Under the pieces are notes generated by a model that was not told where the DNA came from, did not search any database, and saw only the letters and a program-made list of their open reading frames with translations. The position numbers and the translations under genes are program-made. A DNA stretch of 64,000 nt, taken from assembly GCA_009379825.1 (NCBI GenBank), contig WHTA01000019.1, positions 1 to 64,000 on the forward strand, given 5' to 3'. The stretch is from Streptosporangiales bacterium (GTDB lineage Bacteria; Actinomycetota; Actinomycetes; Streptosporangiales; WHST01). This document shows positions 16,083 through 19,324 of the stretch, in pieces (the stretch's first letter is position 1; every line of letters begins with the position of its first letter).

Positions 16083-17195
16083 ATGTCCACTCGTGTGGTC
16101 GTCATCGGTGCCGGCGTAGTCGGTTCCGCTCTCGCCGCTGAGCTCGGTCGCCTCGGCGCTGGCGTCACCTTGATCGACTCGGGCCGGCCGGCTGGCGGCA
16201 CGTCGAACGCGACGTTCTCGTGGACGAACGCCAACTCGAAGGAGCCACGCGAGTACCACGACCTCAACGTCGGCGGCATGCTCGCGCACCGCAGGCTCGC
16301 CGCCGAGCTGCCCGCCGCGAGCTGGTACCACGCCGGCGGCAACCTGGAGTGGACGGACACCGCGGCAGGCGAGGCCGCGCTGCACGCCAAGGTCGACCGG
16401 CTGCGCCGCTATCACTATCCCGTCGCCCTGCTCGACCGGGCACAGGCCCTGACGCTCGAACCGTCGCTCGCGGCGGACCAACTCTCTGACGACGGCATCG
16501 CGTACTACCCGGAAGAGGGATGGATCGAGCCGACCCGGCTGGTCGGCACCCTGCTCGACCTGGCACGTGCGCGTGGCGCCCGGGTGGTGACCAACGACGC
16601 GGTGACGGGCTGCACGTTCGACGGCGCCGCGGTGGCCGGGGTGACTACAGCGTCCGGGGCGTCGTTCGCGGCCGACCAGGTGGTCGACTGTGCCGGGCCG
16701 GAGGCGGCCGCCGTCGCGGCGCTCGCCGGCCTCGAACTGCCGATGCGCAACACCCAGGGCGTGCTGACGTACGTCGAGCCGGTCGCCGTGGCCGTGGGGC
16801 GCGTGATCCACGGTCCGCGCGTGCAGCTGCGTCCCGACGGTGGTGGACGCCTGCTGCTCCACAGCGAGGCGGCGGACGGTGCTGCCCGCCAGCGGCCGGA
16901 CGGTGGCTGGGACGTCGCACCCGGGACGGCGGAACGGCTCCTCGCCGACGCGGCCGAGCTCTACCCCGCGATCGACGGAGCCGCGGTGGAGTCGGTTCGG
17001 GTTGGGACCCGTCCCATGCCCGCGGACGGGCTGCCCGTGCTCGGCAGGTCGGCGGGCATCGAGAACTTCCACTTCGCCGTCACGCACAGCGCCGCGACCC
17101 TCTGCCTACGGATCGCCGAGCTGCTCGGCCCGGAGATAGTGGGCGGCGCAGCCAGCCCGGAGCTCGCCCCGTTCCGGCACGACCGCCTGGGATAA
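16083..17195 (+). CDS. FAD-dependent amino-acid/amine oxidoreductase (DAO family)
   Basis: A 370-aa DAO-fold flavoenzyme. The N-terminal Rossmann motif VIGAGVVGSALAAELGRLGAGVTLID (residues 6-31) binds FAD, and the C-terminus has the usual GTRPMPADGLPVLGRSAGIENFHFAVTHSAAT. It resembles glycine/sarcosine/D-amino-acid oxidases or dehydrogenases; the electron acceptor cannot be told. ATG 16083 follows GGGAGACGAGG. It is divergent from the tct-hydrolase operon across a shared inverted repeat, suggesting one catabolic unit: import, amide hydrolysis, then oxidation of the released amino acid. Confidence 0.85.
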   Translation: MSTRVVVIGAGVVGSALAAELGRLGAGVTLIDSGRPAGGTSNATFSWTNANSKEPREYHDLNVGGMLAHRRLAAELPAASWYHAGGNLEWTDTAAGEAALHAKVDRLRRYHYPVALLDRAQALTLEPSLAADQLSDDGIAYYPEEGWIEPTRLVGTLLDLARARGARVVTNDAVTGCTFDGAAVAGVTTASGASFAADQVVDCAGPEAAAVAALAGLELPMRNTQGVLTYVEPVAVAVGRVIHGPRVQLRPDGGGRLLLHSEAADGAARQRPDGGWDVAPGTAERLLADAAELYPAIDGAAVESVRVGTRPMPADGLPVLGRSAGIENFHFAVTHSAATLCLRIAELLGPEIVGGAASPELAPFRHDRLG

Positions 17196-17262
17196 ATCGG
17201 TGGCGGGCGGTTCCGTGGTGTGTTGTACTCACTCGTCGTCCGTAGCTAACCGAGGAGAGGCA

Positions 17263-17373
17263 ATGCGGCGAGCGTTCATGTCCATTCCGCGACCCACAGA
17301 CACCTACGTCGAGGACATGACGCTCCATGCACACGCTCAACTTGGGGATCCTGGCGCATGTAAACGCCGGTAA
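17263..17373 (+). CDS. Possible leader ORF (36 aa) overlapping the TetM-like gene
   Basis: An ATG at 17263 sits behind a strong GGAGAGG site (17254-17260) and opens a 36-codon frame ending at TAA 17371-17373, 47 bases inside the downstream GTPase gene in a different frame. The main gene's own ribosome site (GAGGA, 11 nt before its ATG) is much weaker. The arrangement could make translation of the resistance gene depend on ribosomes at the leader, as in tet(M)-type attenuation. The peptide resembles nothing I recognise. Confidence 0.4.
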   Translation: MRRAFMSIPRPTDTYVEDMTLHAHAQLGDPGACKRR

Positions 17374-19324
17374 GACCAGCCTCACGGAACGCCTGCTGTT
17401 CACGGCAGGCGTCATCGACGAGATCGGCAGCGTCGACGACGGTAGCACCCAGACCGACTCGCTCGACCTGGAACGGCAGCGCGGCATCACCATCAAGTCC
17501 GCCGTCGTGTCGTTCGACATCGGCGGCCGCACCATCAACCTGATCGACACCCCCGGGCATCCCGACTTCGTCGCCGAGGTGGGACGGGTGCTGACCGTGC
17601 TCGACGCGGCCGTGCTCGTCGTCTCGGCCGTGGAAGGCGTACAGGCCCAGACCAGGGTGCTGATGCGTGCACTGCGGCGGTTGCGGGTGCCGACGCTGAT
17701 CTTCGTGAACAAGATCGACCGCACGGGCGCCCGGCCGGCCGACGTGCTAACCGACATGGCCGACCGGCTCACGCCCGCGGTCGTTGCCATGGGGACGACC
17801 AGCGGGGCGGGCACGAAGGACGCACGCTTCCGGCCGTATGCCGGCGCCGAGAGCGACCACACGGCAGCGCTGCTCGAATTGCTCGTCGACAACGACGACG
17901 AGCTGCTCGCCGCATATCTCGCCGACGACAGCTCGCTGCCTCCTCCGCGCCTGCGTGACGAGCTGGTGCGGCAGACGGTGCGCGCATGCGTGCACCCGGT
18001 GTTCGCCGGGTCGGCGATCACGGGAGCAGGTGTCGACGAGTTGGTCTCCGGTCTCCGCACTCTGCTGCCGCCGACCGCAGGCGAGCCCGACGGGCCGGTC
18101 GCAGGCACCGTGTTCAAGATCGACCGCGGGCCCGCCGACGAGCGGATCGCGTACGTACGCATGACGTCCGGCACGCTGCGGCTGCGCGACCGGGTGCGGC
18201 TCGGCGACCAGGAGCCGAGGGTCACGGGGATCCGTGTGTTCGCCCGCGGTTCGCATCGGTGGAGCACGACGCTGACCGCCGGGCAGATCGGCACGGTCAC
18301 CGGTCTCGACACGGTCCGCATCGGTGACCACGTCGGCACCGCGGACGCGGCCGGCACGGAGCACTTCTTCGGCCCGCCGAGCCTGGAGACGGTCATCAGT
18401 CCGCGCGACCCGGCGGAGCGCCGGGTGCTGCACGCCGCGCTCACCCGGCTCGCCGAGCAGGACCCGCTGATCGACGTGCGGCAGGACGACACCAGGCGGG
18501 AGATCTCCGTCCCGCTCTACGGCGAGGTGCTGAAGCAGGTCATCGAGGCGACGCTGGCCGACGACTTCGGCATCGCCGTCAACTTCCGCGAGACGACCAC
18601 GCTGTGCATCGAACGCCCGGTCGGTACCAGCTCGGCCGTCGAGGCCATCGGCACGGACAGCAACCCGTTCCTCGCGACCGTCGGGCTACGGGTCGAGCCG
18701 GCCGCACTCGACACCGGTGTACGGTTCGAGCTCGCGGTTGAGCTCGGTTCGCTGCCGTACGCGTTCGTCCGGGCGGTCGAGGAGACGGTGCACGACACGC
18801 TCACCCAGGGCCTGCACGGCTGGCAGGTCACCGACTGCACGGTGACCATGACGCACTCCGGCTACTGGGCGCGGCAGAGCCACGCGCACGGCGTCTTCGA
18901 CAAGAGCATGTCGAGCACGGCCGGCGACTTCCGCAACCTCACCCCGCTGGTCCTGATGAGTGCCCTCGCCCGCGCCGGCACCCACGTCTGCGAGCCGATA
19001 CATGCCTTCCGGCTCGAGGTCCCTGCCGACACCCCCGCCGCGGCACTGCGCACCCTCGCGGCGATGCGTGCCGTCCCGCGCCGGCAGGAGATCCGCGGGT
19101 CGCTGTGCACGGTCGAGGGTGACATCCCCGCCGCACGGGTGAGCCAGCTGCAGCAGCAGCTGCCGTCCGCCAGCCGCGGCGAGGGTGTGCTCGAGTGCAC
19201 CTTCGACCACTACGCGCCTGTCACCGACGAGGTGCCGTGCCGTCCGCGCACCGACCACAACCCGCTCGACCGCAAGGAGTACCTGCTGCGGGTCGCACGG
19301 CTGCAGCGCGCAACCCAGAAGTGA
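17327..19324 (+). CDS. TetM/OtrA-like ribosomal protection GTPase
   Basis: A 665-aa translational GTPase of the EF-G/TetM group, which dislodges tetracyclines from the ribosome in characterised members. G motifs: G1 AHVNAGKTSLTE (the usual Asp is Asn here), G2 region RGITIKSAVVSF, G3 DTPGHPDF, G4 NKID. EF-G-like domains II-V follow, with the Tet-type VTMTHSGYW near residue 505. The gene could protect against tetracyclines or act as a housekeeping paralogue; the substrate range cannot be told. A short ORF with a good ribosome site overlaps its start. It is not flanked by antibiotic biosynthesis genes. Confidence 0.87.
   Translation: MHTLNLGILAHVNAGKTSLTERLLFTAGVIDEIGSVDDGSTQTDSLDLERQRGITIKSAVVSFDIGGRTINLIDTPGHPDFVAEVGRVLTVLDAAVLVVSAVEGVQAQTRVLMRALRRLRVPTLIFVNKIDRTGARPADVLTDMADRLTPAVVAMGTTSGAGTKDARFRPYAGAESDHTAALLELLVDNDDELLAAYLADDSSLPPPRLRDELVRQTVRACVHPVFAGSAITGAGVDELVSGLRTLLPPTAGEPDGPVAGTVFKIDRGPADERIAYVRMTSGTLRLRDRVRLGDQEPRVTGIRVFARGSHRWSTTLTAGQIGTVTGLDTVRIGDHVGTADAAGTEHFFGPPSLETVISPRDPAERRVLHAALTRLAEQDPLIDVRQDDTRREISVPLYGEVLKQVIEATLADDFGIAVNFRETTTLCIERPVGTSSAVEAIGTDSNPFLATVGLRVEPAALDTGVRFELAVELGSLPYAFVRAVEETVHDTLTQGLHGWQVTDCTVTMTHSGYWARQSHAHGVFDKSMSSTAGDFRNLTPLVLMSALARAGTHVCEPIHAFRLEVPADTPAAALRTLAAMRAVPRRQEIRGSLCTVEGDIPAARVSQLQQQLPSASRGEGVLECTFDHYAPVTDEVPCRPRTDHNPLDRKEYLLRVARLQRATQK

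Follow-up and report, generated by a model that had tools for sequence, protein, structure and literature searches.

A probable translational attenuator in an overlapping leader frame ahead of an Otr(A)-like ribosomal-protection gene

What does a 36-codon frame do when it begins just ahead of a putative resistance gene and ends inside it? The question is raised by contig WHTA01000019.1 of a Streptosporangiales bacterium (assembly GCA_009379825.1), of which positions 1 to 64,000 of the forward strand were analysed and are called the window here. An earlier note on this DNA had described a GGAGAGG ribosome site, an ATG at 17263 and a 36-aa frame that ends 47 bases within a GTPase gene, and these coordinates proved exact on re-reading. 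The element is likely, in our view, to attenuate translation of an Otr(A)-type ribosomal-protection gene, a reading in which we infer leader translation, stalling by a drug, induction and the identity of the drug. The features of leader and gene are as follows.

17252..17260, + strand: leader Shine-Dalgarno GAGGAGAGG, read from the sequence, with AGGAG or GGAG kept in orthologues; its GGAGAGG is 17254-17260
17263..17373, + strand: leader frame, 36 codons, out of frame with the GTPase gene, which it overlaps by 47 nt
17311..17315, + strand: GTPase Shine-Dalgarno GAGGA, 11 nt before the ATG and partly within the 3' arm of a hairpin
17327..19324, + strand: Otr(A)/TetM/TetO-like ribosomal-protection GTPase, 665 aa, from profile and structure-relative matches
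17327..17373, + strand: out-of-frame overlap of leader and GTPase, from sequence, translation and orthologue counts
17369..17373, + strand: GGT AA(G), with the leader's TAA stop made up of the T of the P-loop glycine codon and the AA that follows

The leader frame (uORF) runs on the + strand from ATG 17263 to TAA 17371-17373, and its translation is MRRAFMSIPRPTDTYVEDMTLHAHAQLGDPGACKRR, followed by the stop. A TGA at 17318-17320 interrupts the GTPase frame, which leaves ATG 17327 as its earliest possible start, and the N-terminus read from there aligns with that of TetO. The protein is an EF-G-like ribosomal-protection factor whose closest solved relatives are TetO and TetM; its EFG_III match, at 23.5 bits, is under the cut-off of 27, and EF-G-like domains were otherwise found. 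Otr(A) is the best curated model, at 714.9 bits against an NCBIfam cut-off of 900, and the tet_protect model gives 697.5 bits, below its NCBIfam cut-off of 775. By the NCBIfam cut-off rule the protein is thus a relative rather than Otr(A) itself, and tetracycline resistance is putative. Its G1 motif, HVNAGKT, has Asn (17363-17365) where nearly all relatives show Asp; Asn also occurs at locus L139.

A scan of named genomes gave 80 orthologues with 59-67% identity, of which 79 could be assessed (L057 is cut by a contig end). A short out-of-frame leader running into the GTPase was present in seventy-seven of these, nearly always with its own clear ribosome site, and was absent in two (L083 and L111). 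The seventy-seven, the window and two genomes of its genus make up a set of 80 leaders, and 69 of them are 36 codons long. A class-level search of 394 genomes returned 58 matches in 55 genomes, one of which is the window; all 57 others have a leader in some form, and in 55 it overlaps the gene. The leader of L151, read by eye, begins Met-Pro instead of Met-Arg, while L144 and L161 have a Met-Arg leader with divergent ends and an apparently extended GTPase. Some genomes in the named and class-level sets are identical or nearly so (e.g. L118 and L065), hence the sets overlap and are not independent. Codon counts were made on 131 loci (80 + 51), leaving out six class-level loci that automated detection missed (L139, L144, L146, L151, L158 and L161). 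The leader start lies 64 nt before the GTPase start in 106 of the 131. At L044, L069 and L107, extra N-terminal codons of the GTPase lengthen both frames and the overlap, with the 64-nt spacing unchanged. Conservation of the leader ATG and frame in orthologues had been named earlier as a check, and start, frame, spacing and stop are all kept. A covariance-model search for a second copy of the leader in the genome found only this site.

The stop goes with a bias in codon choice. The P-loop glycine codon that bears it is GGT in 115 of the 131 loci, compared with 673 of the 7212 other glycine codons of these genes (9.3%), and GGT is found in none of eighteen homologous P-loops from other translational GTPases of the window genome and two of its genus. 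The leaderless orthologues L083 and L111 have GGC and GGA at this position. All sixteen loci without GGT end their leaders at an alternative nearby stop, TGA or TAG, 38-62 nt downstream of the first codon in the aligned N-terminus. L136 and L138 make a natural experiment on the stop constraint: one extra base (leader start 65 nt before the GTPase) shifts the leader frame, and both have GGA rather than GGT. Further into the gene the leader frame meets a stop about every 190 codons, yet each of the 131 leaders terminates 38-104 nt past the GTPase start. Among the 106 leaders with 64-nt spacing, to which this count was restricted, none has an in-frame stop in the 64 nt before the GTPase start; in 500 column shuffles the number with one averaged 10.6 and was never below 4. 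Stop counts in the other two frames are near the shuffled level. By these sequence comparisons, selection acts on the leader frame, on its stop and on the fixed spacing. On this evidence the leader is very probably translated. A chance origin is excluded by the conservation of the leader (77/79 orthologues), its open frame (0/106) and its GGT (115/131).

A 47-nt overlap in a fixed frame relation could also arise if leader ribosomes made a programmed +1 frameshift and so produced a longer GTPase, or if a single frame had been broken in two by a sequencing error. We rejected this reading since 129 of the 131 loci preserve the relation, which speaks against an error; in addition, the GTPase start matches the TetO N-terminus and no slippery motif was noticed. 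Either version is extremely improbable.

The leader stop lies 38 or 47 nt past the GTPase start in 123 of the 131 loci, and this selected position is what would be expected if ribosomes ending at the P-loop stop moved back to a hidden GTPase start, giving low, leader-dependent expression. Termination-reinitiation accounts for the strong conservation of the stop, and the phage fr and MS2 gene pairs overlap by 38 and 50 nt, respectively, with a masked downstream site (PMC12548453, in excerpt). Against it, overlaps of 58-104 nt in 6/131 loci exceed the phage cases, and reinitiation requires neither the fixed 64-nt spacing nor a hairpin arm (described below) placed at the leader's first codons. 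One would also expect an early stop if it served solely to prevent leader ribosomes from continuing out of frame. We regard reinitiation as unlikely, but as the strongest rival to the attenuator, and the two may both operate.

The arm in question belongs to a hairpin with two parts:

17276..17283, + strand: 5' arm TCATGTCC, leader nt 14-21, in codons 5-7, with the extension GAGCG at 17270-17274
17313..17320, + strand: 3' arm GGACATGA, overlapping GAGGA, with the extension CGCTC at 17321-17325

The earlier note had called the GTPase's own ribosome site weak. In the window sequence the leader Shine-Dalgarno is strong and that of the GTPase weaker and distant, but GAGGA is kept in orthologues and is predicted to be hidden by the hairpin, and 'weak' alone does not describe it. 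In folds of the window RNA, TCATGTCC pairs with GGACATGA (z -2.4; 3 of 200 shuffles fold as well). The predicted cost of opening GAGGA is 9.2 kcal/mol, falling to 5.0 with a ribosome on the leader ATG and to about 0 with one at codon 10. Across the 106 loci, the mean cost of opening the GTPase Shine-Dalgarno is 7.7 kcal/mol, against 3.6 after shuffling of leader codons 2-16; the native cost exceeds the mean of its own shuffles in 101 loci, and a ribosome on the leader AUG brings the mean to 2.9 kcal/mol. Early occupancy of the leader is thus predicted by these models to free the GTPase site. At three of 80 loci (L072, L096 and L103) codon shuffling does not weaken the leader's fold. L103 is S. 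violaceoruber, which we take to be a close relative of S. coelicolor.

In the 80-row alignment, standard pairs fill 92.7% of the 640 cells of the eight-pair core, nine cells being changed on both sides, a count that leans towards this structure since it was chosen beforehand from single folds. The covariation score of the core helix was reached by none of 500 shuffles. The extension is weaker, with 85.5% paired over 11 pairs. Slid versions of the structure equal it in the number of pairs with two-sided changes, and RNAalifold predicted no consensus pair on the same alignment. Of 21 double changes that start from a pair on a tree of 101 loci, 15 preserve pairing, compared with 21 of 41 in six slid controls together; each slid version shows 1-7 such paired-to-paired changes. 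The remaining six double changes break pairing, as do 96 single changes, mostly in the extension and in the pair nt 14/58. Covariation support for the hairpin is moderate, not decisive. An Rfam search of 17000-17600 found no family at gathering score.

The most telling evidence for the hairpin comes from relatives with a different stem and the same layout. We examined nineteen divergent relatives, whose stem letters are wholly different (e.g. GACTCCTCG with CGAGGAGTC in L165) and in which the Shine-Dalgarno-like motif before the GTPase start is still the paired part. The native opening cost was above the codon-shuffled cost in 16 of the 17 computed; the other two of the nineteen had no Shine-Dalgarno motif for computing. 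Energetics are clearer than covariation. In these models, a hairpin with one arm in the leader hides the GTPase Shine-Dalgarno and is maintained.

These results bear on another arrangement, in which the leader is a decoy. Its strong site, set against the weaker and distant site of the GTPase, would draw ribosomes that occlude the GTPase start, which they would cross in 131/131 loci; a drug would lower initiation or elongation on the leader, and the hairpin would be secondary. The decoy leaves unexplained the conserved hairpin, the codon-shuffle results and the varied stems with the same target, and we hold it to be improbable.

A conserved arrest peptide is unsupported: third positions of codons 8-16 are not clearly more variable, and the middle codons show no clear peptide constraint. 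Arg does occupy leader codon 2 in 127 of the 131 loci. We do not claim this as proof of peptide selection; nt 2-5 can pair with the region of the GTPase start codon. For nt 2-5 with nt 66-69 (17264-17267 and 17328-17331 in the window), pairs are possible in 98, 77, 102 and 105 of 106 loci, and the TGC exceptions at codon 2 retain a G-U pair at nt 4. The CG that almost always follows the leader ATG may owe its conservation to this pairing, by which the two start codons would join at the hairpin's base.

The attenuator that we favour would work as follows. In unstressed cells, ribosomes would initiate at the strong leader site, translate across the GTPase start and terminate within the P-loop codons. 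Once they had passed, leader nt 10-21 would pair with nt 51-61 and cover the GAGGA of the GTPase. Tetracycline or another inhibitor of early elongation would hold a ribosome in the first leader codons, most simply at the AUG. Its front edge, at about nt 16-18, would melt the hairpin by covering the extension and half of the core stem. With GAGGA (nt 49-53) and the GTPase start then free, a second ribosome could make the protection factor. Tetracycline is described as arresting ribosomes on start codons, their front edge lying at +16 to +18 (PMC12121999; PMC4909307; both in excerpt), and such arrest on the toiL uORF as opening a hairpin and inducing E. coli topAI (PMC12121999, in excerpt). The modelled geometry of the window leader fits a start-codon sensor. 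The earlier note had proposed that the overlap couples ribosome stalling to synthesis of the protection factor. The coupling gains a physical basis from the conserved hairpin, which joins early leader codons to the GTPase Shine-Dalgarno, but it is probably the first few leader codons, and not the overlap, that sense the drug.

The same note had appealed to leader-peptide attenuation as known for ribosomal-protection genes, an idea that stands in outline, with the evidence favouring translational control. Transcription attenuation by an intrinsic terminator was rejected because no such terminator follows the leader, and no U run comes after the 3' arm. A scan of 17150-17450 gave a single terminator-like site, at 17203-17216, which lies upstream of where the transcript is predicted to start.

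Transcription itself probably adds a further layer of control, through a promoter of WblC/WhiB7 type, with these predicted elements in the window:

17192..17197, + strand: AT-rich box ATAAAT, WblC/WhiB7-type, 3 bp before the -35 element, a 4/6 match to GAAAWY
17201..17206, + strand: -35 element TGGCGG, which fits TKGMNN
17224..17229, + strand: -10 element TGTACT, 17 bp after the -35 element, departing from TANNNT at position 2

The WblC consensus is given as GAAAWY, 3 bp, TKGMNN, 16-19 bp and TANNNT, with the start 7-8 bp after the -10 element (PMC7157823, in excerpt), and the predicted transcript start in the window is about 17236-17237. The AT-box followed by 3 bp and TTG occurs in 107 of the 131 upstream regions, compared with 0.87 expected by shuffling, about 66 nt before the leader start. 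The window is one of the 24 loci without this exact arrangement and has a degenerate version of it. Its predicted promoter (17190-17206) overlaps the end and stop (17193-17195) of an upstream FAD-dependent oxidoreductase gene. The S. coelicolor tetM gene (SCO0783) is listed in the WblC regulon (PMC7157823, in excerpt), and together with the frequency of the promoter this would suit a plain WblC/WhiB7-controlled gene whose leader has been retained through descent alone and does nothing for regulation. The GGT choice and the replacement of lost stops need ongoing selection, however, and the leader persists in copies from Chloroflexota and rhizobia, including two Chloroflexota copies (L051 and L094) that have no AT-box match. 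We give this explanation very little credence. In L051 and L094, both from metagenome-assembled genomes, the -10 region reads TACACT, as if a WblC-type promoter had turned ordinary with the leader retained.

Attenuation of ermC relies on a drug-specific arrest peptide, and the tet(M) leader acts by transcription attenuation with a terminator. In contrast, the window's leader family shows no conserved peptide beyond codon 2 and the stem-coding codons, and the window leader has no terminator after it and overlaps its gene. What is shared with ermC-type attenuators is that leader stalling, presumed in the window, exposes a hidden Shine-Dalgarno of a ribosome-resistance gene (PMC10219788; PMC6685928; both in excerpt), and with tet(M) and tet(W) a short leader frame ahead of a ribosomal-protection gene, the tet(W) leader peptide being putative (PMC3350403, in excerpt). 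The pairing of uORF codons with a downstream Shine-Dalgarno is shared with toiL-topAI of E. coli, which controls a toxin-antitoxin operon with subsequent Rho-dependent termination, whereas the window has a ribosomal-protection GTPase, an overlapping uORF and a P-loop stop (PMC12121999, in excerpt). The leaders of Streptomyces ARE5 ABCF genes likewise precede actinobacterial resistance genes and combine a WblC layer with a uORF whose inhibition takes place at the start codon (as we presume for the window), but they have terminator/anti-terminator folds and uORFs of 3-9 codons in place of a hairpin hiding a Shine-Dalgarno and an overlapping 36-codon uORF (PMC12421871, in excerpt). The MS2/fr coat-lysis pairs resemble the window in a downstream start hidden by structure, with 38-50 nt of overlap; their upstream frame is a full structural gene, whereas in the window it is a leader of 36 codons, the first of which form the hairpin (PMC12548453, in excerpt). 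The type of attenuator is thus already known and the setting is new; what is unusual is that the leader overlaps the gene it would control and that its stop is fixed in the P-loop codons. A literature search, with most subscription papers and supplementary files outside its coverage, found no description of such a leader.

Otr(A)-type ribosomal-protection genes are widespread in soil actinomycetes. If the attenuator is real, they would carry an ancient built-in switch, in which leader, stop and catalytic loop share bases, on top of the WblC/WhiB7 response. It would offer a testable case of peptide-independent drug sensing through start-codon arrest, explain how the gene is carried into new hosts with inducibility retained, and be a further regulatory element to annotate before Otr(A)-type genes.

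The leader seems to stay with the gene when promoter and host change, because the Chloroflexota copies retain it and three of the four rhizobial plasmid copies that were read have a leader of the same plan. More speculatively, and with some doubt on our part, leader and gene could form a cassette that moved as a unit among Actinomycetota, Chloroflexota and Rhizobiaceae, with the leader kept under different promoters. It would then be a self-contained, family-wide tetracycline sensor that needs no arrest peptide, relying on start-codon parking, with the two starts tied in one hairpin and the stop in P-loop codons.

The rhizobial genes with a leader are Otr(A)-like and about 50% identical, and come from Agrobacterium salinitolerans pDG3-1d (L172), Rhizobium sp. 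T1473 (L173) and Ensifer canadensis pT173d (L174). Their leader begins Met-Arg-Arg, 58 nt upstream, and ends 53 or 77 nt inside the gene (locus position ~540-680). The fourth copy, from R. rhizogenes (L178), has lost it. Two PLSDB entries, NZ_LT559118.1 (11.85 Mb) and NZ_CP108785.1 (5.7 Mb), are listed as plasmids; at least NZ_LT559118.1 looks chromosomal.
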